Source: Nodosilinea sp. P-1105 (GTDB lineage: Bacteria > Cyanobacteriota > Cyanobacteriia > Phormidesmidales > Phormidesmidaceae). Taken from it: 64,000 bases of DNA. Of the stretch, positions 48,920 through 62,022 are shown piece by piece. The stretch's first letter is position 1; each line of letters starts with the position of its first letter. The stretch is from assembly GCF_012911975.1 (NCBI RefSeq), contig NZ_SMDQ01000004.1, forward strand, positions 1-64,000. The letters are read 5' to 3'. Made by a program: the position numbers and the translations under genes. The notes beneath the pieces were generated by a model, which saw nothing but the letters and a program-made list of their open reading frames with translations, had not been told where the DNA came from and made no database searches.

Positions 48920-49663
48920 TTAACGATAGCCCAGCCCCTTTGATGCCCCAAACCCCTTGGCCACGCTACCCTGCACCTGCTTGAAGCTAACTCTATCGGC
49001 ACCGGGGTCATAGAGTACGTAGGCAGGTTGGCCTACCCGACCCACATTGCCCACCCCCACCACTCGGCGGGGTGACTTTTCCTGCTCCTGGGGTGCCGCT
49101 GTCTGATCCAAGGTAGTCACCGTAGAGCGCAGAGCACCAGGCTCGATCCAACACTCAAAGGCTCGCCCTGATCGCCCACAAAACAGCGTGTTGGCATCGG
49201 CGCGGATCAGGCCATCGCATAGAGTAATCGGCGGCGTCTCCGGCGTCAGCTCATCGCTGTAGCTCACGGTACTGCCGTGGATCAGCAGACAATCCAACTC
49301 GTGGAAGCCAAAGTCTAGAGTCGCCAACCACTGCACCGTCTGCCGCGACACCGTCTCCCACAGGTCTTTCACTGCCCCAAGGCCATACCGTTCCACCAAT
49401 TCCGGCGCATCGGGCAGCCCGCGAAAACCGTGCAGGCTAAAGCACTGCTCCTCCCACCAGCCCGTACAGACCTGGGGGATAGGTTCCCCTGGCTGGGGCT
49501 CTCTCACCCGCCGCACCACCGCCTCGTTATCGCCCTTCAGCCCCACTAGATCGCCCACTATATAGAGATCCGTCACCGGATTGCGCTGTCGTCGAATATC
49601 CGCCAGCACTGCCTCATAGGCCGCTAGATTGCCTTCGATGCCGCTGAGAATGGCCCATTGCAT
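48920..49663 (-). CDS. Calcineurin-like phosphoesterase paralogue with lost metal ligands
   Basis: A 247-residue protein with the fold pattern of the small MJ0936/YfcE-type phosphoesterases and clear relationship to its neighbour, but the metal motifs are broken: DxHGN reads SGIEGN (Gly8, Glu10), GNHD reads CTGWWEEQC, and GHTH reads FCGRSGRAFE. GDLVG and IHGS remain. It is therefore probably not a normal dinuclear phosphoesterase; a binding or regulatory role is inferred. ATG at 49663 is chosen because an AGGAG site precedes it and the frame upstream runs into repeat DNA encoding Pro/Thr/His. Last gene of the putative zinc operon. Confidence 0.75.
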   Translation of the reverse strand: MQWAILSGIEGNLAAYEAVLADIRRQRNPVTDLYIVGDLVGLKGDNEAVVRRVREPQPGEPIPQVCTGWWEEQCFSLHGFRGLPDAPELVERYGLGAVKDLWETVSRQTVQWLATLDFGFHELDCLLIHGSTVSYSDELTPETPPITLCDGLIRADANTLFCGRSGRAFECWIEPGALRSTVTTLDQTAAPQEQEKSPRRVVGVGNVGRVGQPAYVLYDPGADRVSFKQVQGSVAKGFGASKGLGYR

Positions 49664-49681
49664 GAATTGGACTCCTATTTT

Positions 49682-49878
49682 GTGGATGGGTGGATGGGTA
49701 AGGGGTGGATGGGTAGGCGGGGAAGTAGGTTGTTTAGAGGGAGTGTTCAGCAAATCGCGCTTGACAAGGCTGAAACCCTTGATTTTTCGTTCCCGGAACG
49801 GGGGTTTACGCAAAATTTTGGTCGCTCCCTAGACTCATGCACCCATCCACCCATCCCCTCATCCACCCTCACACCCCA
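49682..49878. repeat. Bipartite G/C-arm element A, interrupted by a short insert
   Basis: The G-rich arm (about 49682-49722; GGATGGGTGGATGGGTAAGG) is followed by the core AAGTAGGTTGTTTAG, then about 93 bp of unrelated sequence, then the second half of the core (AGACTCATG) and the C-rich arm (about 49840-49878; CACCCATCCACCCATCC). Comparison with elements B and C shows the core is normally continuous. The arm reaches right up to the stop codon of the next phosphoesterase gene. Confidence 0.85.
49738..49830. mobile_element. Candidate 93-bp MITE inside element A
   Basis: The insert begins AGGGAGTG and ends CGCTCCCT, inverted ends that match at seven of eight positions, and the flanking host bases AG (or TAG) appear on both sides, as expected for a small target-site duplication. 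It carries no ORF. The inside contains GTTCCCGGAACGGG, another short palindrome. It looks like a non-autonomous derivative of an insertion sequence; the parental element is not in the window. Confidence 0.55.
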
Positions 49879-50691
49879 TTACCGCTCACAAACATGCCCC
49901 GCATCCTCCGCCCGCTCGGCAAACTCCATGCCCCGCTCCAGTCGCCAGGCGAAGATCGGCGGCAGGCCCTGTTCGAGGATGGCGGCGCAGGTTTTTTTGT
50001 AGTCGTAGGGCACTTCCCGCAGGGTGACCTGGGTGGTGTCGGTGTCGTAGAGGACGTAGGTGGCGTTGGGTCTGCCGTGGCGGGGTTCGCCGACGGAACC
50101 GGCGTTGACGATGCGTTTGAGGGGGGCGGTGAACTGGCGCTGGGTTTCCCCTTGCCCGGGCTGCTGCACCCTGACCGAGAGGGTGCCATTCTCTAGCTCT
50201 CGCAGATAGGGGACGTGGGTGTGGCCACAGAACAGCACATCGGCCTCGGCGGCCAGGACCCGCTCCAGGGCAGCGAAGCCATCCATGGTGGGCAGCAGGT
50301 ATTCGTGCTGGCTGTTGGGGCTGCCGTGGACAAAGCAAAGGTTGTCCTGGCGTAGGGTCATGGGCAGGCTGGCCAGGTACTCGCGCACCTCGGGGTGAAT
50401 GACGCGGTTCGTCCACTCATGGGCCAGGTGACCTCGCTTTTCCGCCAGTTGGGAGGGGTAGCTGCACTCGCAGGCGTTCAGCCCCTCGACGATGTCTTCA
50501 TCCCAGCAACCCTGACAGGTGGGGATATCCAAAGACCGAATCATCTCGACTACGGCGTTGGGGTAGGGGCCATAGCCCACCAGGTCCCCCAGGCAGTAGA
50601 TCTGCTCAGCCTTTTGATTGTCGATGTCGCACAGCACGGCGTCGAGGGCCTCATAGTTGCCGTGGATGCAGGAAATGACCGCTAGTTTCAT
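49879..50691 (-). CDS. Calcineurin-like phosphoesterase with cysteine-substituted metal site
   Basis: A 270-residue member of the MJ0936/YfcE-like metallophosphoesterases. GDLVGYGP (35-42), FVHGSP, CGHTHVP and NAGSVGEPRHG are intact. The first metal motif DxHGN reads SCIHGN, so Cys8 replaces the usual Asp, and GNHD reads GCWDED, with Cys62 for Asn and Trp for His. Further cysteines cluster at 59, 74 and 76. Cys at metal-ligand positions suggests a site for a softer metal such as zinc, or a redox-sensitive or inactive site. Overlaps the upstream CobW-like gene by four bases (ATGA), so coupled translation is likely. Confidence 0.82.
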   Translation of the reverse strand: MKLAVISCIHGNYEALDAVLCDIDNQKAEQIYCLGDLVGYGPYPNAVVEMIRSLDIPTCQGCWDEDIVEGLNACECSYPSQLAEKRGHLAHEWTNRVIHPEVREYLASLPMTLRQDNLCFVHGSPNSQHEYLLPTMDGFAALERVLAAEADVLFCGHTHVPYLRELENGTLSVRVQQPGQGETQRQFTAPLKRIVNAGSVGEPRHGRPNATYVLYDTDTTQVTLREVPYDYKKTCAAILEQGLPPIFAWRLERGMEFAERAEDAGHVCER

Positions 50692-51458
50692 ACAAAAAGA
50701 GCCTCTTCTGCAGGGTCTAGGGATTGGTAATGCTGTTGGTATTGGGCCAGGGCGGCGTCGGATAGGGTGCTATCCAGCAGGGTTTGGGCGATCGCCTCTC
50801 GCTCTAGTCCATAGCCCACCACCTCAATGCCGCTGAAGCGATCGGGCCGCCCCTCTAGCCAGCGGGGAATCGCCAACTCGGTATAGGCCATCCCCGGCAG
50901 CCCCTCGACAAAATCCACATGGAAGGCGCGTCCATCGGGAAGCTCAAAAATTCCCTTCATCCGGCCCACCTGGCCGTAGGCTCCCCCGGACACCTCCAGC
51001 AGCAGCGCCTCCAGGCTGGGCGGGTCGAACACCTGCCCATTCAGCGGCGTACACCAAATTTCTGGCAAGTAACCATTGGCCGGAGCTGCCACAGGGTTAC
51101 CGGTCACGATGCGATCGCTCCATCCGTGCCAGTCCGATTCGGCCAGGTCAGGGGGCAGCACCGCCACCCGCTCCCAGGGCAACTCTGCCAAAAACGGTGA
51201 ACCCAAATCCAGGTGAAACCCCCACTCCAAATACACCGTTGCCTGCTCCGGCAAATCCGCCAGAATGGCCGTCAGCTGAGCCTCAGGTACCACCTGCACC
51301 CAGGGAAATCGATAGCCAATGTGGGCCAAATCCACGGACAGGTCCCCCAGCCCTGGGCACACATAGTACTGGGGAGTGGACTGATGCTTGAGAAACTGGC
51401 TAATCCAAGTCGTTTTGCCGCTGCCAGAGGGGCCGGAGATGGCGATGAGGTGGGGCAT
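50688..51458 (-). CDS. CobW/COG0523-like P-loop GTPase lacking CxCC
   Basis: A 256-residue divergent relative of the G3E GTPases. The P-loop is GPSGSGKTT (residues 9-17), and the C-terminal half retains a CobW C-domain flavour (RMKGIFELPDGRAFHVDFVE in part). It has no CxCC metal-binding motif and no His-rich stretch, both present in the neighbouring CobW proteins, and the NKxD specificity motif is not evident. Probably it works with the downstream phosphoesterase, to which it is coupled by a four-base overlap. No Shine-Dalgarno is visible: the C-rich side of element B ends two bases before the ATG. Confidence 0.7.
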   Translation of the reverse strand: MPHLIAISGPSGSGKTTWISQFLKHQSTPQYYVCPGLGDLSVDLAHIGYRFPWVQVVPEAQLTAILADLPEQATVYLEWGFHLDLGSPFLAELPWERVAVLPPDLAESDWHGWSDRIVTGNPVAAPANGYLPEIWCTPLNGQVFDPPSLEALLLEVSGGAYGQVGRMKGIFELPDGRAFHVDFVEGLPGMAYTELAIPRWLEGRPDRFSGIEVVGYGLEREAIAQTLLDSTLSDAALAQYQQHYQSLDPAEEALFV

Positions 51459-51460
51459 TT

Positions 51461-51651
51461 GGGGGGATGGGTTGGAGGGTAGGAGGGTGGATGGGTAGGA
51501 GGGTAGGAGGGTGGATGGGTAGGAGGGTGGATGGGTAGATGGGTAGGGGGTAGATGGGTAAGCGGGTCAAGGAGTAGGTAGGTTGCTTAGACTCATGAAC
51601 CCATTCACTCATCCACTCATCCACCCATCCACCCATGCACTCATCCACCCT
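51461..51651. repeat. Bipartite G/C-arm element B
   Basis: G-rich arm at 51461-51567 (units such as GGAGGGTGGATGGGTA), core AGGTAGGTTGCTTAGACTCA (about 51576-51595), C-rich arm at about 51597-51650 (units CACTCATCCACTCATCCACC). It occupies the complete gap between the CobW-like start and the folE stop. In the minus-strand transcript the G-rich copy of the right arm comes first and the C-rich copy of the left arm last, directly before the CobW-like AUG. Confidence 0.9.
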
Positions 51652-52302
51652 TTAATGAAACGCCGGACTGTGCCGAATCAAACTCATAAACTCCTGCCGG
51701 GTGCGGGCGTCGTCGGCAAAGACGCCTTTCATGGCGCTGGTGACGGTCCAGGAGCCGGGTTTTTGGACGCCGCGCATGACCATGCACATGTGGGTGGCTT
51801 CGACCACAACGGCAACGCCCTGGGGTTGCAGGAGCCCCTGGAGGGCGTCGGCGATCTGGGCGGTGAGGCGTTCTTGCACTTGCAGGCGGCGGGCGTACAT
51901 TTCGCAGATGCGGGCGACCTTGGAGAGACCGATCACCTTGCCGTTGGGAATGTAGGCCACATGGGCGCGGCCCAGGATGGGCAGAATGTGGTGTTCGCAG
52001 GAGCTAAATAGGTCGATGTCGCGCACCAGCACCATTTCGTTGGTGTTTTCGTGGAAAACAGCGCCGTTGAGTAATTCATCCAGGGATTGGTTGTAGCCGG
52101 AGGTGAGGAATTTGAGGGCCTTGACCACCCGCTTGGGGGTGTCGATTAGTCCTTCGCGATCGGGGTCTTCCCCCAGGCCAATCAGCAGGGTACGCACCGC
52201 CTGCCGCATTTCAGCCTCGGAGACGCGGGGCTGGGACTGGATGGAAAGGGCGGCGATCGACTGATCAGCGGAGAGGTCGCGGGAGGGAAGTTGTGCGGTC
52301 AT
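51652..52302 (-). CDS. folE: GTP cyclohydrolase I (FolE, type IA, zinc-dependent)
   Basis: FolE turns GTP into 7,8-dihydroneopterin triphosphate for folate and pterin synthesis. The 216-residue product has the zinc ligands Cys102 and His105 in SSCEHHILP and Cys173 in HMCMVMRGV, so it is the zinc-requiring IA form. Its position downstream of a His-rich CobW fits the known link of COG0523 GTPases with FolE under zinc limitation (ZagA in Bacillus). ATG at 52302; a weak AGGA lies upstream. Cytoplasmic homodecamer by family. Confidence 0.96.
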
Positions 52303-52321: not shown

Positions 52322-52408
52322 GGGTGGGTGGGTAAGCGGTCTACGGTTTACGGTTTACGGTTTACGGTTTACGGTTTGAGCCTTGCACCGTGAACCGTTC
52401 ACCATGCA
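52322..52408. repeat. TTTACGG heptamer tandem and related words
   Basis: A GGGTGGGTGGGT run is followed by five copies of TTTACGG (about 52343-52377), then TTGCACCGTGAACCGTTCACCATGCACC. The array runs through the TAA stop of cobW, which lies at 52362-52364, so the last codons of that gene (Asn-Arg-Lys-Pro) are repeat-derived. Confidence 0.88.
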
Positions 52409-53450
52409 CCGATACTTGACAAGCGGCCAACTGCTGTCGCAGTCCATCCGCGTCGAGGTGGCGACCAATGAAGACGATCTGGTTGCCGGGACTGGCACTG
52501 TGCCAGGGTTCTACGTCGAGGGTGCAGCGTTTGCCACTGAGCTGAAAAATATGTTTGTTGGGGCTTTCGTTGAACCACAGCAGCCCCTTAGCGCGAAACA
52601 CATCCCTGGGGAGGGCCTCGAGAAACTGCTCAAACTGACGTAGGGCAAAGGGGCGATCGCTGCGGTAGGACACTGACACAAAGCCGTCGTTTTCTAGATG
52701 ATGGCTGTGATGGCCATGTCCGTGGTGGTCATGGTCATGATGATCGTGATGATCGTGGCCATGGCTATGATCATCGTGGCCATGTTCCGCTGGCTCTAGG
52801 GGAATCATGGCGTCGTAGGCCATGGGGTCATTGAAGCCCACATTCAGCACTAGGGGCAGGGGCAACGAGGCATTCTGGCAGCGGATGATGCGGGCACCTT
52901 CCTTCAGGCTATGGATGTGGTTTTCGAGCTTTTCCACCCCCTCATCGGGCACCAGATCGGTCTTGTTCAGCAGAATCATGTCGCTGTAGGTGATTTGTTT
53001 AAAGGCCGCCTCGCTATCAAACAAATCGGGGGCAAAGGCCGAGGCATCGACCAGGGTAATGACGGAATCGAGCCGGGTGAGATCGCGCAGTTCGGTGCCC
53101 AGAAAGGTGAGCAAAATCGGCAGCGGATCGGCCACGCCAGTGGTTTCAATCACCAGGTAGTCAATTTTGTCGCCCCGTTCGAGCACGTTGTAGACTGCTT
53201 CCACGAGGCCATCGTTAATCGTGCAGCAGATGCAGCCGTTACTCAGCTGCACCATGTCCTGATCGACGGAGACCAGTAGCTGGCTATCGATGTCAATATC
53301 ACCAAATTCATTCACCAAAACCGCAACTTTCAGGTTTTGATTATTGGTCAGAATGTGGTTCAGCAGGGTGGTTTTGCCACTGCCCAAAAAGCCAGTGATG
53401 ATGGTGACCGGCAGACCACGTTTGGGGATGGATGGGGATTGGGAGGTCAT
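52362..53450 (-). CDS. CobW/COG0523 metal-chaperone GTPase with His-rich region
   Basis: A 362-residue G3E-family GTPase. GFLGSGKT (20-27) is the P-loop, NGCICC (71-76) the CxCC metal site, LNKTDLV the base-recognition motif, and about residues 222-253 hold a long His/Asp/Gly stretch typical of zinc-related members. By family it would load zinc into client enzymes when the metal is scarce; folE is the next gene downstream. C-terminal CobW_C domain (about 258-350) has RAKGLLWF. The ATG at 53450 has no clear ribosome site, and the C-terminus runs into a heptamer repeat. Minus-strand zinc operon. Confidence 0.93.
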   Translation of the reverse strand: MTSQSPSIPKRGLPVTIITGFLGSGKTTLLNHILTNNQNLKVAVLVNEFGDIDIDSQLLVSVDQDMVQLSNGCICCTINDGLVEAVYNVLERGDKIDYLVIETTGVADPLPILLTFLGTELRDLTRLDSVITLVDASAFAPDLFDSEAAFKQITYSDMILLNKTDLVPDEGVEKLENHIHSLKEGARIIRCQNASLPLPLVLNVGFNDPMAYDAMIPLEPAEHGHDDHSHGHDHHDHHDHDHHGHGHHSHHLENDGFVSVSYRSDRPFALRQFEQFLEALPRDVFRAKGLLWFNESPNKHIFQLSGKRCTLDVEPWHSASPGNQIVFIGRHLDADGLRQQLAACQVSVHGERFTVQGSNRKP

Positions 53451-53590: not shown

Positions 53591-54421
53591 TTAAACCGCC
53601 GACAATTTCGTTCTAGGCAATACAATTGCTACTAGAAAGATCGCAAGCTGCATGGTGACGATCGCAGGTCCTGAAGGCAGATTAAAGGCTGCCGAAATCA
53701 CCATACCTAGCACGGCACCTAATGCCCCCAGCAGGGCGGACAAAATCACGTAGCCAGTGAAACTGTGGCTGAGTAGGCGGGCAGCGCAGGCAGGAATCAC
53801 CACAAAGGCACTGATCAATAGCACACCGATCGCCTGGATGGAGGTGCCCACCACTAGGGCCAACAGCACAATGAATGTCGTGCGGTGGGCCGAGGCGGAG
53901 ATACCCCGAGCCACGGCTAAGGGTTCGTGGAGGGTGAGCAGAATCTGCGATCGCAGGGTCAGCCCCACGTAAACCACACAGGCTACCAGCAAGATGGAAC
54001 CCACGACTAGATCGCCCTGCCGCACCGCCAAAATGTCGCCGAACAAAATGTTGTTAATACCACCTCGGTACTGCCCCACAAAGGTCAGCAAAATCACCCC
54101 AATGGCCAGGGACGACGAGTAGACAATATTCAACAGCGCATCCGTCCACAGCCGCGTGCGCTCTAGCAAGTACGTCACCCCCAGGGCGAATACCACCGCA
54201 AAGGGCAGTAACACTGAGGAGGGGTTCATGCCCAACAACAGCCCCAGACTGATACCCAACAGGGCCGAATGCCCCAGGGCATCACTAAAAAACGACAGCT
54301 GCCGCAGGATGGTGAAACTGCCCATTAGCCCCCCCATCAAGCCGGTGAGGATGCCGCCCATCAGGGCGCGCTGCATGAAGGGGAGTTGGAAGAGTTCGAG
54401 GGTGTGGGTGAGGGAGGGCAT
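53591..54421 (-). CDS. znuB: Zinc ABC transporter permease ZnuB
   Basis: A 276-residue ABC-3-type membrane permease with about eight helices (for example residues 15-40, 55-80, 95-118, 135-158, 178-205, 220-250). The family pattern FSDALGHSALLGISLG (about 45-60) is present. It would form the channel of the ZnuABC importer for Zn2+. ATG at 54421 follows a C-rich repeat (CCATCCACCCCT) with no visible ribosome site. It is separated from znuC by about 480 bp that hold an opposite-strand gene within a repeat element, so it may depend on read-through from znuC. Confidence 0.93.
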   Translation of the reverse strand: MPSLTHTLELFQLPFMQRALMGGILTGLMGGLMGSFTILRQLSFFSDALGHSALLGISLGLLLGMNPSSVLLPFAVVFALGVTYLLERTRLWTDALLNIVYSSSLAIGVILLTFVGQYRGGINNILFGDILAVRQGDLVVGSILLVACVVYVGLTLRSQILLTLHEPLAVARGISASAHRTTFIVLLALVVGTSIQAIGVLLISAFVVIPACAARLLSHSFTGYVILSALLGALGAVLGMVISAAFNLPSGPAIVTMQLAIFLVAIVLPRTKLSAV

Positions 54422-54490
54422 AGGGGTGGATGGGGGGGAGGGTGGATGGGGGGGTGATTTTGGGGGAAGGGTGGATGGGGGAGGGGTTGG
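54422..54490. repeat. Left G-rich arm of element F
   Basis: GGGTGGATGGGGGGGAGGGTGG-type sequence (units shortened here) directly upstream of the znuB start and running into the start of the opposite-strand four-helix-bundle gene. Its counterpart is the C-rich run at 54858-54901, in inverted orientation. Confidence 0.8.
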
Positions 54491-54858
54491 TTAGGGGATA
54501 TCGGGATTTAGAGGTTTATCAGGTGGCTTTCGAGGCGGCGATGGAAATTTTTGAGGTCTCAAAAAGGTTTCCGGTTGAGGAACGGTACTCATTGACCGAT
54601 CAAATTCGGCGCTCCTCGCGATCGGTCTGTGCAAATTTGGGAGAGGCTTGGCGAAAGCGACGATACGAAGCAGCCTTCATTGCCAAGATCAGCGATTGTC
54701 AGGCTGAGGCGACAGAAACACAAATCTGGATAGAATTTGCCGTCAAATGCCAGTACCTCGATCCTGAAACTGGCAGACACCTGTACTGCATGTACGACAA
54801 AGTCCTGGGTCAACTCGTCAACATCATCAAAAACTCCTCCCACTGGATCATCAAATAA
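54475..54858 (+). CDS. Four-helix-bundle protein, 23S rRNA-intervening-sequence (IVP) type
   Basis: A 127-residue protein of the IVP family (first described from spacer inserts in 23S rRNA genes), a pentameric four-helix bundle of unknown function. The signature includes GYRDLEVYQVAFEAAMEIF in part, YSLTDQIRRSSRSVCANLGE and a helical C-terminus. It is the only plus-strand gene in the minus-strand zinc operon and lies between znuC and znuB, bracketed by inverted G/C-rich arms. Its probable ATG (54475) lies within the G-rich arm; a TTG at 54487 is an alternative. The arrangement looks like an inserted cassette. IVP genes often occur as isolated, mobile-looking units. Confidence 0.85.
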   Translation: MGEGLVRGYRDLEVYQVAFEAAMEIFEVSKRFPVEERYSLTDQIRRSSRSVCANLGEAWRKRRYEAAFIAKISDCQAEATETQIWIEFAVKCQYLDPETGRHLYCMYDKVLGQLVNIIKNSSHWIIK

Positions 54859-54901
54859 CCCCACCCATCCACCCCCTACCCATCCACCCATCCACCTCCC
54901 C
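54858..54901. repeat. Right C-rich arm of element F
   Basis: CCCACCCATCCACCCCCTAC-type repeats starting at the stop of the four-helix-bundle gene and ending at the znuC stop. It is complementary to the left arm about 400 bp away. Confidence 0.8.
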
Positions 54902-55666
54902 CTAATGCCGATGCCGATACCTGACAAACTCCGACCCATAGACCAGCGCCAGGTTATCCGGTGCTAAAGCTACCTCTGGGCTGCCCTGGCACCGGATAGA
55001 GCGGTTGAGGCAGAGGACGCGATCGCAGTGTTTGCGGACCATGTCGAGGTCGTGGGAAATTTGCAGGATGGCCCAGCCCTGGTCTTGTTTCAGTTGGTAG
55101 AGCAATTGGTAAAACTCTGACTCACTGCGGATATCGAGGCCAGCGGGGGCTTCGTCGAGGATCAGCAGGCGGCGGGGGCGCACCAGACAGTAGGCCAGTA
55201 GGGCACGTTTCATTTCGCCGCCAGACAGACGAGAAATCGGCTGGGGACCGAGGTGCAGGGCATCGACTTCGGTGAGGGCGCGGCTGACCGCCAGGCGGCG
55301 GGGTTGGCGGTTGGCCCAGGGTAGCTGTGGCCCTAGGGTGTCCCAGCCGAGGGCGACGAGTTCGTTGACCGTGATTGGGATGCGACGGTCGAACAGGAAG
55401 TTTTGGGGCAGGTAGGCAATCTGCTGCCGCACCTGGGCCGGTAGACGCCCCTGACGACTGAGGGCATGCCCCAGCACAAACACATCCCCCGACCGCCGGG
55501 GCAGGATGCCCAAAAGGGCCTGAATCAAGGTACTTTTGCCAGCCCCATTGGGGCCAACGATGGCGGTGTCAGTGCCCTCAGCCAGGGTAAAGGACACATC
55601 CTGCACGGCGGGGTAGGTGTCGCGGTATACAGTCAACCCGTCTACGACTAGAACGTCAGTGCTCAA
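54902..55666 (-). CDS. znuC: Zinc ABC transporter ATP-binding protein ZnuC
   Basis: A 254-residue ABC ATPase for the Znu importer. Walker A is GPNGAGKST, the signature RLSGGEMKRALLAY, Walker B LLILDEAPAGLD, and the H-loop is in LQISHDLDM. The best start is TTG at 55666: AGGAGGGG lies just ahead and includes the TAG stop of znuA, which couples the two genes. An ATG 26 codons upstream (55744) is inside znuA, and has no ribosome site, so it is rejected. Followed by the C-rich arm of element F. Confidence 0.92.
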   Translation of the reverse strand: MSTDVLVVDGLTVYRDTYPAVQDVSFTLAEGTDTAIVGPNGAGKSTLIQALLGILPRRSGDVFVLGHALSRQGRLPAQVRQQIAYLPQNFLFDRRIPITVNELVALGWDTLGPQLPWANRQPRRLAVSRALTEVDALHLGPQPISRLSGGEMKRALLAYCLVRPRRLLILDEAPAGLDIRSESEFYQLLYQLKQDQGWAILQISHDLDMVRKHCDRVLCLNRSIRCQGSPEVALAPDNLALVYGSEFVRYRHRH

Positions 55667-55677
55667 GTGCGCCCCTC

Positions 55678-56820
55678 CTAGAACCGTAGGCCCATGGTCT
55701 GGGGAACCGCTGCCACTGGTTGAGTTTCCCACCGTGGTAGCCAAGACTGGGGCTCAGCCCCAAAGGAAGCTACCAAATTAGCCGCATTTTGGCGCATCGT
55801 CGCCAGATAGTACTCAGGCTGCACTGCCTCGGGACCGCCCACTTCGATGGGGTCGAACATGCTGACGCCTACCCCCAGATCGCGGGCGATCGCATCAAAG
55901 GCATCCTCCCCAACCGTGGGCTCGGTCAAAATTGCCTTTAGCCGGGACGTATCAACTTCATCCATCACTCGCCGCACATCCTCGGGAGAAGGGTTAATGG
56001 CGGGCACATCCACCAAATACTCGCTCTCTAAGCCATAGCTCTCGGCAAAGTAGGGGGCAAAGTCGTGGAACACCACAAAGCTCTGTCCGGCAAACGGGGC
56101 CATTTTCTCTGCAATCTCCGCATCCAGCGCTTCTAGCTCAGCAATGAAAGCCGCCGCATTGGCCGTGTAAATCTCCTCTCCCTCAGGGTCTACAGAAATC
56201 ATACCGTCGCGGATATTCTCCACCTGCTGAATCGCCCGCTTGGGGTCGAGCCAGATGTGGGGATTGTACTCGCCGTGGTGGTGATGGTGGTGCCCCGCCT
56301 CGGCGTGGTCGTGGTCATGATCGTGGTCATGGCTATGATCGTGGTCGTGGTCGTGGCCATGATCATCATCATTACCGTGACTGTGACCATGGCTATGCCC
56401 TCCCTCATCCTCATTGGCCAGCACTGCAATCCCCTCGCTGGAGTCAATCATCACTAGATCCGGGTTCTCGGCATTGGCAATCAGGTCATCCAAGAAGAAC
56501 TCCATCTCCAGGCCGTTCTTCACCAGCACGTCAGCATTGGCCAGCGCCTGCACATCCGCAGGCCGCGCCTGAAAATCGTGGGGATCCACATTGGTCGGCA
56601 TCAGGGGAATCACCTCAGCGCGATCGCCCACTACTGCATTGGTAAACTGCGTGATCGGCAAAATCGTCGTCATCACCGTCAGGTCAGTGGCCTCCACCGC
56701 CCCACCAGGGGCATCGGCCTCGCCGACCTCAGTAGGGCCAGTGCCGCAGCCCCCCAGGGCGATCGCCACAGAGGATACAAGCAGTAGGGCCGTTCGGCGG
56801 AAAGGGAAGAGGGTTGGCAT
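55678..56820 (-). CDS. znuA: Zinc ABC transporter substrate-binding lipoprotein ZnuA
   Basis: A 380-residue cluster-9 metal-binding protein. It has a lipoprotein-type signal with LGGC (Cys25), then NVDPHDFQ (His81), a His/Asp-rich loop (about residues 142-182) typical of zinc-specific members, NPHIWLDP (His188), FVVFHDFAPYF (third His) and EPTVGEDAF near the fourth ligand. ATG at 56820 is chosen since AAGGAG lies just before and the signal peptide starts there; the frame upstream is repeat DNA. It captures Zn2+ in the periplasm and hands it to ZnuB. A 290-bp gap filled with element C separates it from hemB. Confidence 0.95.
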   Translation of the reverse strand: MPTLFPFRRTALLLVSSVAIALGGCGTGPTEVGEADAPGGAVEATDLTVMTTILPITQFTNAVVGDRAEVIPLMPTNVDPHDFQARPADVQALANADVLVKNGLEMEFFLDDLIANAENPDLVMIDSSEGIAVLANEDEGGHSHGHSHGNDDDHGHDHDHDHSHDHDHDHDHAEAGHHHHHHGEYNPHIWLDPKRAIQQVENIRDGMISVDPEGEEIYTANAAAFIAELEALDAEIAEKMAPFAGQSFVVFHDFAPYFAESYGLESEYLVDVPAINPSPEDVRRVMDEVDTSRLKAILTEPTVGEDAFDAIARDLGVGVSMFDPIEVGGPEAVQPEYYLATMRQNAANLVASFGAEPQSWLPRWETQPVAAVPQTMGLRF

Positions 56821-56829
56821 GGGGGTCTC

Positions 56830-58193
<1,364 letters not shown>

Positions 58194-58220: not shown

Positions 58221-58649
58221 ATGGATCGCGACCCTTCAGCCGAAAAAAACTGTGCGGCGGTATCGGCGGTACCGCCTCCCCCTGGGCTGACCCCTGGACA
58301 GCAGGCTGTGTTGACGGCCCTGCGGCAGCAGCCCCAGCCGCTCTCGGCCCAGGCACTCCATGGGGTGATGGCGGTCCAGCGCTCCATCGGGCTGGCCACG
58401 GTTTACCGAGCGCTTGACCTGCTCAAGTTGTTAGGACTGGTGCAACACCGGGTGACCCTGAGCGGAGAAACACTGTACAGCGTGGTGGAGCACGACCACC
58501 ATTACCTCACCTGTCTGCAGTGTGGCGTTTCAGTGCCGGTGGAGACCTGTCCAGTGCAGGAACTGGTGGCGCACCTCCAGAGAACCAACTCGTTCCGGAT
58601 TTACTATCACACCCTGGAGTTTTTCGGCGTCTGCGATCGCTGCTCTTGA
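58221..58649 (+). CDS. zur: Zinc uptake regulator, Fur family (Zur)
   Basis: A 142-residue Fur-superfamily repressor. Winged helix with recognition region IGLATVYRALDLL (56-68), then HDHHYLTCLQCG and a C-terminal VCDRC, giving the two CxxC pairs (98/101, 138/141) of the structural zinc. The adjacent zinc importer, COG0523 genes and Zur-type operator make zinc the likely signal: with zinc it should bind the operator and repress itself, hemB-znuACB and cobW2. ATG at 58221. The first 20 residues are variable. Confidence 0.92.
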   Translation: MDRDPSAEKNCAAVSAVPPPPGLTPGQQAVLTALRQQPQPLSAQALHGVMAVQRSIGLATVYRALDLLKLLGLVQHRVTLSGETLYSVVEHDHHYLTCLQCGVSVPVETCPVQELVAHLQRTNSFRIYYHTLEFFGVCDRCS

Positions 58650-61014: not shown

Positions 61015-61986
61015 TCACCTCACCAAACACTCCCTAAACGACTCCTTCAACCCCATTTCTTCCAAATTTCGGCCGATAAACACCAGCTCGTTCTTGCGGG
61101 TTTCGTCAGCGCGCCAGGGGCGGTCTTGGCGGCCATCGAACAGCATGTGAACACCCTGGAAGACAAAGCGACAGTCTTCGCCAGCGATGTTGAGAATGCC
61201 TTTCATGCGGAAGATGTCGGGGCCGCGATCGCGCAATAGTGCCCCCAGCCATTGATTAAGCTTGTCGCCATCGACTTCACCCGATTCCACCAGGGCAATG
61301 GAGCCGACGGTTTCGTCATGTTCGTGGGCGGTTTCGTTGAGAAATTCGGGATCGATCTGGAGGGCGTTACCCAGGTCAAAGGCGCTGACGCCAAGGATAG
61401 AATCCATTTCCACCTGGGCGTCGCGGGTACGGTAGATTTTGGCGATCGCATTCATCCCCCGAATCCGCTCTTCCAGCGCTTTTAGCTCTGCTTCGGTCAC
61501 CAGATCAATTTTGTTGAGCAAAATCACATCGGCAAAGGCAATCTGCTCTAGGGCTTCGTCGGCCTCCCAGTGCTGGACGATGTGGGCCGCATCTACCACG
61601 GTCACCACGGCATCCAGGCTGGCCTGGGTCTGCACCTCGTCATCCACAAAAAAGGTCTGGATTACCGGGGCGGGGTCGGCCAACCCCGTAGTCTCGATCA
61701 CCAGGTGGTCAAACTTGTCGCGGCGCTTCATCAGATTGCCGATGATGCGGATCAGGTCGCCGCGCACGGTGCAGCAGATGCAGCCGTTGTTCATCTCAAA
61801 GATTTCTTCGTCGGCGTCGATCACCAGCTGGTTGTCGATACCGACCTCACCAAACTCGTTGACAATCACCGCCACCTTCTTGCCGTGCTCGTGGGTGAGG
61901 ATGCGATTCAGCAGCGTGGTCTTGCCCGCCCCAAGATAACCTGTTAGCACCGTAACCGGAACAGAATGCTGGATAGCAGCGACCAT
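61015..61986 (-). CDS. CobW/COG0523 metal-chaperone GTPase (second copy)
   Basis: A 323-residue G3E GTPase: GYLGAGKT (16-23), NEFGEVGIDNQL, NGCICC (67-72), ETTGLADPAP, NKIDLV and the CobW C-domain with RMKGILNIAGED and LVFIGRNLEEM. Unlike the other copy it lacks a His-rich stretch. A Zur-type site lies about 20 bp upstream, so it should be expressed when zinc is low and deliver metal to client proteins. ATG at 61986 has GAGG seven bases ahead; GTG at 61992 is possible. Probably cotranscribed with the WD40 gene. Confidence 0.94.
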   Translation of the reverse strand: MVAAIQHSVPVTVLTGYLGAGKTTLLNRILTHEHGKKVAVIVNEFGEVGIDNQLVIDADEEIFEMNNGCICCTVRGDLIRIIGNLMKRRDKFDHLVIETTGLADPAPVIQTFFVDDEVQTQASLDAVVTVVDAAHIVQHWEADEALEQIAFADVILLNKIDLVTEAELKALEERIRGMNAIAKIYRTRDAQVEMDSILGVSAFDLGNALQIDPEFLNETAHEHDETVGSIALVESGEVDGDKLNQWLGALLRDRGPDIFRMKGILNIAGEDCRFVFQGVHMLFDGRQDRPWRADETRKNELVFIGRNLEEMGLKESFRECLVR

Positions 61987-62007
61987 GGTCACACCTCGCC
62001 TTATGAA

Positions 62008-62022
62008 TGATAATCATTTTCA
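62008..62022. promoter_or_regulatory. Zur-type operator upstream of cobW2
   Basis: TGATAATCATTTTCA matches the 7-1-7 pattern with one mismatch in the right half. The overlapping AATGAT-A-ATCATT (62006-62018) is a perfect 6-1-6 palindrome identical to a Fur-box core. It lies 22 bp from the cobW2 ATG. Confidence 0.78.

Follow-up and report, generated by a model that had tools for sequence, protein, structure and literature searches.

The 64,000-nucleotide stretch of DNA analysed here (the window; Nodosilinea sp. P-1105, contig NZ_SMDQ01000004.1, positions 1 to 64,000 of the forward strand) carries a unit of three genes on its minus strand, whose products we refer to as PloopC, MpeA and MpeB. 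MpeA (49879-50691, 270 residues) is a metallophosphoesterase in which two metal-ligand positions have been converted to cysteine. The gene for PloopC (50688-51458), a P-loop protein with a CobW_C domain, lies upstream and overlaps that of MpeA by 4 bases. The neighbouring gene on the other side encodes MpeB (48920-49663, 247 residues from its ATG), a predicted pseudo-phosphoesterase with 31% identity to MpeA. The distribution of the trio is patchy but conserved, and includes Prochlorococcus.

The altered metal site of MpeA

MpeA matches the Metallophos_2 profile PF12850 at 78.8 bits (cut-off 27; E 5.8e-22) and contains the motifs SCIHGN (residues 7-12), CLGDLVGYGP, GCWDED (61-66), HGSP and CGHTH. 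Positions 8, 10, 36, 62, 122, 157 and 159 correspond to the established metal ligands of the superfamily. As the initial annotation had noticed, cysteine stands for the first Asp of DxH (Cys8, codon 50668-50670, minus strand) and for the Asn of GNxD (Cys62, codon 50506-50508, minus strand), and GHTH is kept; the remaining expected ligands, H10, D36, H122, H157 and H159, are intact in the sequence. The two replacements were identified from alignments, a comparison with relatives and codon counts. For Cys8 the register comes from phmmer, which aligned SCIH of MpeA over SDVH of the solved structure 3rqz. This alignment is off by two residues near GCWDED and was not used for Cys62, whose register comes from the gap-free pairing of IPTCQGCWDE with IPTIAGNYDE in metallophosphoesterases of arsenic-resistance (ars) operons; the alignment with 1nnw agrees.

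The substitutions are lineage-wide and do not reflect decay in one strain. A first alignment of 112 rows comprised the window, two loci that are the window again (L001 and L002) and 109 other loci, 80 of them from a scan that started from six peptide patterns (two containing cysteines) and 29 from a pattern-free search. All 112 rows have Cys at positions 8, 33, 62, 74, 76, 155, 235 and 268 and His at 266, reading CxH at the DxH motif and GCWDE at the Asn ligand. A second set of 45 rows was collected by pattern-free searches (L142 repeats L128, and L143 repeats L119); here C8, C62, C74, C76, C155, H266 and C268 were found in every row, with Ser for C33 in two rows and for C235 in one. Because the sets share genomes (L130 and L062, like L140 and L056, have identical contig coordinates), their rows are not independent counts. 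The GD, HGS and GHxH motifs were present in both alignments. The initial annotation had reasoned that DxHGN or GNHD in close homologues would mean strain-specific decay; neither the 109 other loci nor the 45 rows contain these motifs, which rules such decay out. Both TGT and TGC are in use at each of six Cys positions counted across the 109 loci, indicating that the cysteines persist through silent change. The ratio of nonsynonymous to synonymous substitution rates (dN/dS) for MpeA was 0.06-0.08 in five of six comparisons, the sixth being saturated; here and for the partners, dS exceeded 1 for the L048 and L036 pairs, apart from PloopC with L048, and dN/dS values for those pairs are rough.

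The cysteines at the ligand positions are not the only ones conserved, and the initial annotation understated the case in this respect as well as in overlooking a third gene. A CxC (Cys74 and Cys76, 50464-50472, minus strand) and a C-terminal HxC (His266 and Cys268, 49888-49896, minus strand) are likewise invariant. The AlphaFold2 model of MpeA has a predicted local distance difference test score (pLDDT) of 80.8, falling below 50 at residues 71-80, 127-130 and 260-270. Low confidence at the CxC loop and the HxC tail would fit ordering upon contact with a metal or a partner, and would equally fit a plain lack of data. In fold comparisons 2gju (Z 28.5, r.m.s. deviation 2.5, 226 residues aligned), 3rqz (Z 27.9, 3.1, 219) and 1nnw (Z 27.9, 2.9, 228) were tied as top matches, and SapH (3qfm) scored Z 26.7 (2.7, 230), with Z between 26.5 and 28.5 over five solved entries. 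By profile match and predicted fold, MpeA belongs to the metallophosphoesterase superfamily.

Asp at position 8 and Asn at position 62 were found in 21 of 21 other relatives compared, a small choice and no census, of which 15 came from plasmid records and six from genomes of other classes in the same phylum. For these 21 this bears out the expectation that ordinary members do not have Cys at these ligands, although 1nnw and 2gju show that the site can be altered in other ways. Some of the 21 relatives share C33 and C155, which are therefore not special to MpeA; the HxC tail was found in none of the 21. The CxC loop is present in six of ten relatives labelled as members of ars operons (L115, L117, L118, L175, L177 and L183), all six of which read GNYD. 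The ars-operon relatives occur together with arsB/ACR3, and some also with arsM or ArsR. An arsenic role for MpeA was considered and set aside, zinc genes being the commoner neighbours, and the ars link is kept only as a hint on the CxC loop. A few kilobases from the trio in the Prochlorococcus locus L110, a gene at 7670-8929 matches the model of the ArsJ organoarsenical exporter; this was the only copy tested against the model, and with its close relatives in L096, L102 and L107 such genes occur in four of 83 loci searched. A viral or cyanophage origin was also rejected: one scan of viral contigs confirmed no relative, and a separate search gave one distant phage match at 26%.

The partners MpeB and PloopC

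The corresponding motifs of MpeB read SGIEGN, VGDLVG, GWWEEQ, HGST and CGRSG. The loss of Asp, His and GHTH that had been described for this downstream paralogue is evident, with both GHTH histidines gone, and Asn is lost as well; the Asp of GD and the His of HGS are still present. In 12 rows examined for the ligands, DxH has become G-x-E/Q/K/G and the Asn motif GWWE, with GD and HGS present and GHxH absent. The dN/dS was 0.11-0.15 in all six comparisons and the AlphaFold2 model has a pLDDT of 89.0, so that MpeB appears from its sequence to be a conserved pseudo-phosphoesterase. Scanned as a longer open reading frame, it had no match in Pfam or NCBIfam at E 0.001. That frame, which starts from a TTG (to 49813), enters a low-complexity repeat; the ATG at 49663 agrees with the homologues. 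A branch with support of 100/97 in a phylogenetic tree has MpeA and MpeB on the same side, a joint placement that fits an origin by tandem duplication. Support for MpeA as a single group is lower, at 59/85, and the tree contains several long outgroup branches. In several loci a short methyltransferase-like gene, seemingly truncated, lies between MpeA and MpeB (for example L059, 10819-11319).

The CobW_C match of the window PloopC (PF07683) is weak, yet above the cut-off (25.0 bits against 22). In an alignment of 46 sequences, of which every second row was inspected, neither a CxCC motif nor NKxD was seen. PloopC gave dN/dS values of 0.09-0.15 in five of six comparisons; one comparison had a stop. 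Of 109 loci, 74 show an overlap of exactly 4 bases between PloopC and MpeA, and in 98 the two genes are no more than 20 bases apart; MpeB is usually next after MpeA. In L083 (9251-10816) PloopC and MpeA are read in one open frame of 522 codons, either a fusion or a sequencing slip.

MpeA is present in 84 of 242 genomes of the class. As raw genome counts, with no correction for kinship between genomes, 82 have both MpeA and MpeB, two MpeA only, six MpeB only and 152 neither; this count was made after setting aside one genome (G395) whose sole MpeB match was MpeA itself. The corresponding figures for PloopC are 81 with both, three with MpeA only, eight with PloopC only and 150 with neither. Many of the exceptions are partial matches, some at contig ends, yet nearly complete copies without MpeA exist for MpeB (G440) and for PloopC (G420, G225 and G530). 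Within the genus of the window the unit occurs in two of the seven members listed. The shared occurrence and the order of the genes speak for PloopC, MpeA and MpeB functioning jointly as one unit. The initial annotation had supposed that the pair might be a sensor and a scaffold, or a heteromeric enzyme in which one subunit is dead; the combination of an altered and a dead subunit fits, while the third partner was missed.

Zinc genes and Zur-box-like sites around the unit

Upstream of the trio in the window, on the same strand, lie folE, a COG0523 GTPase gene, znuB, znuC, znuA and hemB, with a Fur-family gene divergent from them. FolE (GTP cyclohydrolase I, 51652-52302, PF01227) has a second copy in the genome (73%). 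The COG0523 GTPase (52362-53450, cobW/CobW_C) has a CICC motif and a His-rich stretch. The zinc ATP-binding cassette (ABC) transporter genes encode a ZnuB-type permease (53591-54421, PF00950), whose best NCBIfam model, AztB, scored below its cut-off, a ZnuC-type ATPase (54902-55744, start uncertain, PF00005) and the zinc-binding protein ZnuA (55678-56820, start estimated, PF01297 at E 1.1e-74). HemB (57111-58166, PF00490), also with a second genome copy (59%), has a metal motif that reads as one of the Asp type. The Fur-family regulator (58221-58649, plus strand, PF01475) is taken as Zur from its position. Between zur and hemB a genome motif scan found the Zur-box-like palindrome TGATAATGATTATCA (58179-58193), a perfect copy of the presumed cyanobacterial Zur-box consensus. 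Sites with at most one mismatch number six in the 6.0 Mb genome and zero in the reversed control. A second COG0523 GTPase (61015-61992, minus strand), recognized by its family match, lies behind another Zur-box-like site from the motif scan at 62008-62022.

Other features of the window concern its repeats. Those of the GGATGGGT type fill the intergenic gaps at 49664-49878, 51459-51651 and 54422-54901 and lengthen open reading frames with spurious peptides of the HPPTHPP type. A gene for a 23S rRNA intervening-sequence protein (54430-54858) separates znuB from znuC; it is encoded on the other strand and has GGTGGATGGG-type repeats on either side. Elsewhere in the genome another His-rich ZnuA-like gene, recognized by eye (L190, 414-1526), lies near a Zur-box-like site.

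The zinc context extends to other genomes. Of 79 named loci, 49 have a Zur-box-like site that matches the same presumed consensus at 11 or more of 14 positions and lies no more than 400 bases upstream of PloopC; the mean best score in single-base shuffles was 8.65. L102 was too short and was dropped, and box distances are unreliable for L034 and L089. The box often stands directly before PloopC. Zinc genes, defined as a match of more than 80 bits to any of seven window queries, were present in the fetched stretch of 46 of the 79 loci, and 72 of 79 had zinc genes or a box-like site. On plasmid islands of Trichormus variabilis and Dolichospermum the trio is accompanied by thrS, annotated GTP-binding proteins and metal ABC genes. 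A gene for an FAD/NAD(P)-binding oxidoreductase occurs in 42 of 83 loci searched (for example L112, 6757-8022), often divergent beside PloopC across the Zur-box-like site. Judged from this context and the box-like sites, gene clusters of the trio are predicted to be under Zur control. The initial annotation had expected the cysteines to favour zinc or iron. Gene context strongly supports zinc and is a better guide here than the chemistry of the ligands by itself; iron may still be the metal.

Published expression data seem at first contrary to this prediction. According to passages of Ludwig et al. 2015 (PMC4628125), the PCC 7002 plasmid genes hemB-II, folE-II, G0131 (GTPase-like) and G0132 (FAD oxidoreductase) are induced both by deletion of zur and by TPEN. 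In those passages G0129 (phosphoesterase) and G0130 show no rise in the zur deletion. We compared 30 kb of the plasmid, pAQ7, with PCC 7117. The unit is intact in PCC 7117 and broken in PCC 7002 (L194, 18584-20711), where the region from residue 148 of PloopC to about residue 120 of MpeB, including the whole of MpeA, is replaced by about 950 bases. The flanks of the replacement are 94% and 99% identical between the strains, and the insert has no match to the trio. A plasmid search of the whole collection likewise gave no MpeA match of at least 60% on pAQ7, the chromosome of PCC 7002 not being searched. Going by the order of the old tags, G0129 would be a remnant of MpeB, G0130 the insert and G0131 a remnant of PloopC right behind the box. 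The broken unit would explain the RNA-sequencing result, and on this assignment the expression data support Zur control of PloopC and are silent on MpeA. That the plasmid copy is broken in so widely used a strain is perhaps part of why the trio was overlooked.

Possible functions of the trio and its relation to known systems

MpeA is an altered form of a known fold, and its cysteine conversion, its two partners and the zinc context together suggest a hitherto unstudied means of coping with scarce zinc. We found no biochemical work on MpeA, MpeB or PloopC in the open-access literature. The reading we favour, with a little less than even confidence, is a Zur-regulated zinc-starvation complex in which MpeA would hold and hand over a thiophilic metal, probably Zn. 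PloopC, MpeA and MpeB would form a co-translated cyanobacterial module, switched on when Zur loses its zinc. Each half of the dinuclear site of MpeA would have gained one thiolate, giving C8/H10/D36/H159 and D36/C62/H122/H157, and the resulting set of a Cys, two His and a shared Asp at each metal position would suit Zn(II). The mobile thiols of the CxC loop and the HxC tail could close over the site. MpeA would then hold Zn(II) tightly and pass it on, phosphoesterase work probably not being its main role. PloopC, which has no CxCC site of its own, would supply a nucleotide-driven step, and MpeB, the sister with a dead metal site, would be a structural partner. A more specific version, which we consider doubtful, is a zinc-allocation machine built by remodelling the phosphoesterase fold, in which both metal positions would be of the Cys/His/Asp type, the CxC and HxC arms would load and unload zinc, MpeB would dock and PloopC would drive release. 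If true, this would be a class of metallochaperone not derived from any known to us.

Several observations weigh against the zinc-handover complex. The box nearest to the trio in the window lies 6.7 kb upstream, with repeats and an opposite-strand gene between, and since the operon is loosened in this way, transcription of the trio from the 58179 box is putative. Among the 79 loci, 33 have no zinc gene in the fetched stretch and 30 no good box up to 400 bases from PloopC (23 of these 30 with zinc genes), seven having neither; zinc genes are absent from the fetched stretch of most Prochlorococcus loci. At least one counted box, that of L041, resembles a run of His codons, and the control consisted of single-base shuffles only. 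The Prochlorococcus PloopC copy in L110 gave no CobW_C match, and the CobW_C similarity of PloopC is weak. The non-substituted residues of the MpeA catalytic site (H10, N12, D36, D64, H122, S124, H157 and H159) are intact, and the 99 invariant columns of the alignment would also fit a working enzyme.

These last two points bear on the strongest competitor, to which we give a substantial though minor share of belief: MpeA may be a phosphohydrolase acting on a nucleotide or phosphodiester through a thiolate-supported Zn, Fe or Co site, with MpeB as its inactive partner. On this view the enzyme would be made at zinc shortage, either to process a nucleotide signal or for the recycling of some product. 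The main argument that MpeA may still hydrolyse phosphoesters is that all other ligand and substrate-site residues are kept; slow evolution and the presence of the Ap4A hydrolase SapH (Z 26.7) among the closest solved folds point the same way. Zinc hydrolases with Asp-Cys-His sites exist, the metallo-beta-lactamases among them. However, no catalytic role suggests itself for the thiols of the CxC loop and the tail, and additional thiolate would make an enzyme hungrier for zinc just when zinc is scarce. Zinc holding and handover is favoured over a thiolate-tuned hydrolase on account of the extra thiols, the COG0523-like partner, the dead sister and the zinc context.

The remaining explanations are considerably less probable. 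A redox-active or iron-sulphur centre bound by the thiols, which would make MpeA a redox or iron-responsive protein, is improbable: eight cysteines are nearly invariant, C8, C33 and C62 lie in or beside metal-site motifs and 42 of 83 loci searched hold the oxidoreductase gene, but the ferredoxin-type CxxC spacing is absent from the MpeA sequence, the His and Asp ligands are kept, the neighbourhood is one of zinc and not iron, Ser sometimes replaces C33 or C235, and C33 and C155 occur in canonical relatives too. The window HemB, with its Asp-type motif, and FolE are second copies, and MpeA could by analogy with these neighbours be a zinc-sparing back-up of a housekeeping phosphoesterase. We regard this as somewhat more improbable still, since MpeA and MpeB are the only matches in the genome of the window at E of at most 0.001, leaving no close canonical copy to back up (the 11 further PF00149 matches are of other kinds), and Cys ligands would raise and not lower zinc demand. 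Least probable by far is that the genes are dying and the changes in them inactivating. Some genomes without MpeA retain fragments of MpeB or PloopC, and the PCC 7002 plasmid copy is broken, but real decay of this kind brings truncation and stops instead, and for MpeA and MpeB as families decay is refuted by lineage-wide invariance and purifying selection (dN/dS 0.06-0.15). The replacement of Asp and Asn by Cys, kept across cyanobacteria, amounts to a natural experiment in metal selectivity, and the link of the trio to zinc scarcity is relevant for marine cyanobacteria in zinc-poor water.

Among known proteins, the Metallophos_2/YfcE type (PF12850), SapH (3qfm) and the Sphaerobacter protein 3rqz resemble MpeA in fold and motif order and share H10, D36, H122, H157 and H159 with it. 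MpeA differs from the PF12850 type in the Cys at both ligand positions, the CxC loop, the HxC tail, the zinc context and the pseudoenzyme partner, and its likeness to SapH-type Ap4A hydrolases is one of predicted fold only. The Pyrococcus proteins 1nnw and 2gju have the MpeA fold and altered metal-site positions too; opposite C8, H10 and C62 they carry Asn, Ala and Lys, and no Cys, and therefore other metal-site-altered branches of the subfamily exist. The ars-operon metallophosphoesterases of Bacteroidota and Clostridia, among the closest non-cyanobacterial relatives found (35-37% identity), keep the Asp and Asn ligands and lack the HxC tail, unlike MpeA. PloopC has the P-loop, the CobW_C domain and the zinc context in common with the COG0523 (CobW/ZigA) zinc GTPases, but is shorter and has neither the CxCC metal motif nor NKxD. 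Zur-regulated zinc-starvation sets of cyanobacteria comprise znuABC, hemB2, thrS2, folE2 and COG0523 according to passages and table rows of PMC6103462. Those passages and rows do not name the trio as a unit, and it resembles these sets in its neighbours and its box-like site.

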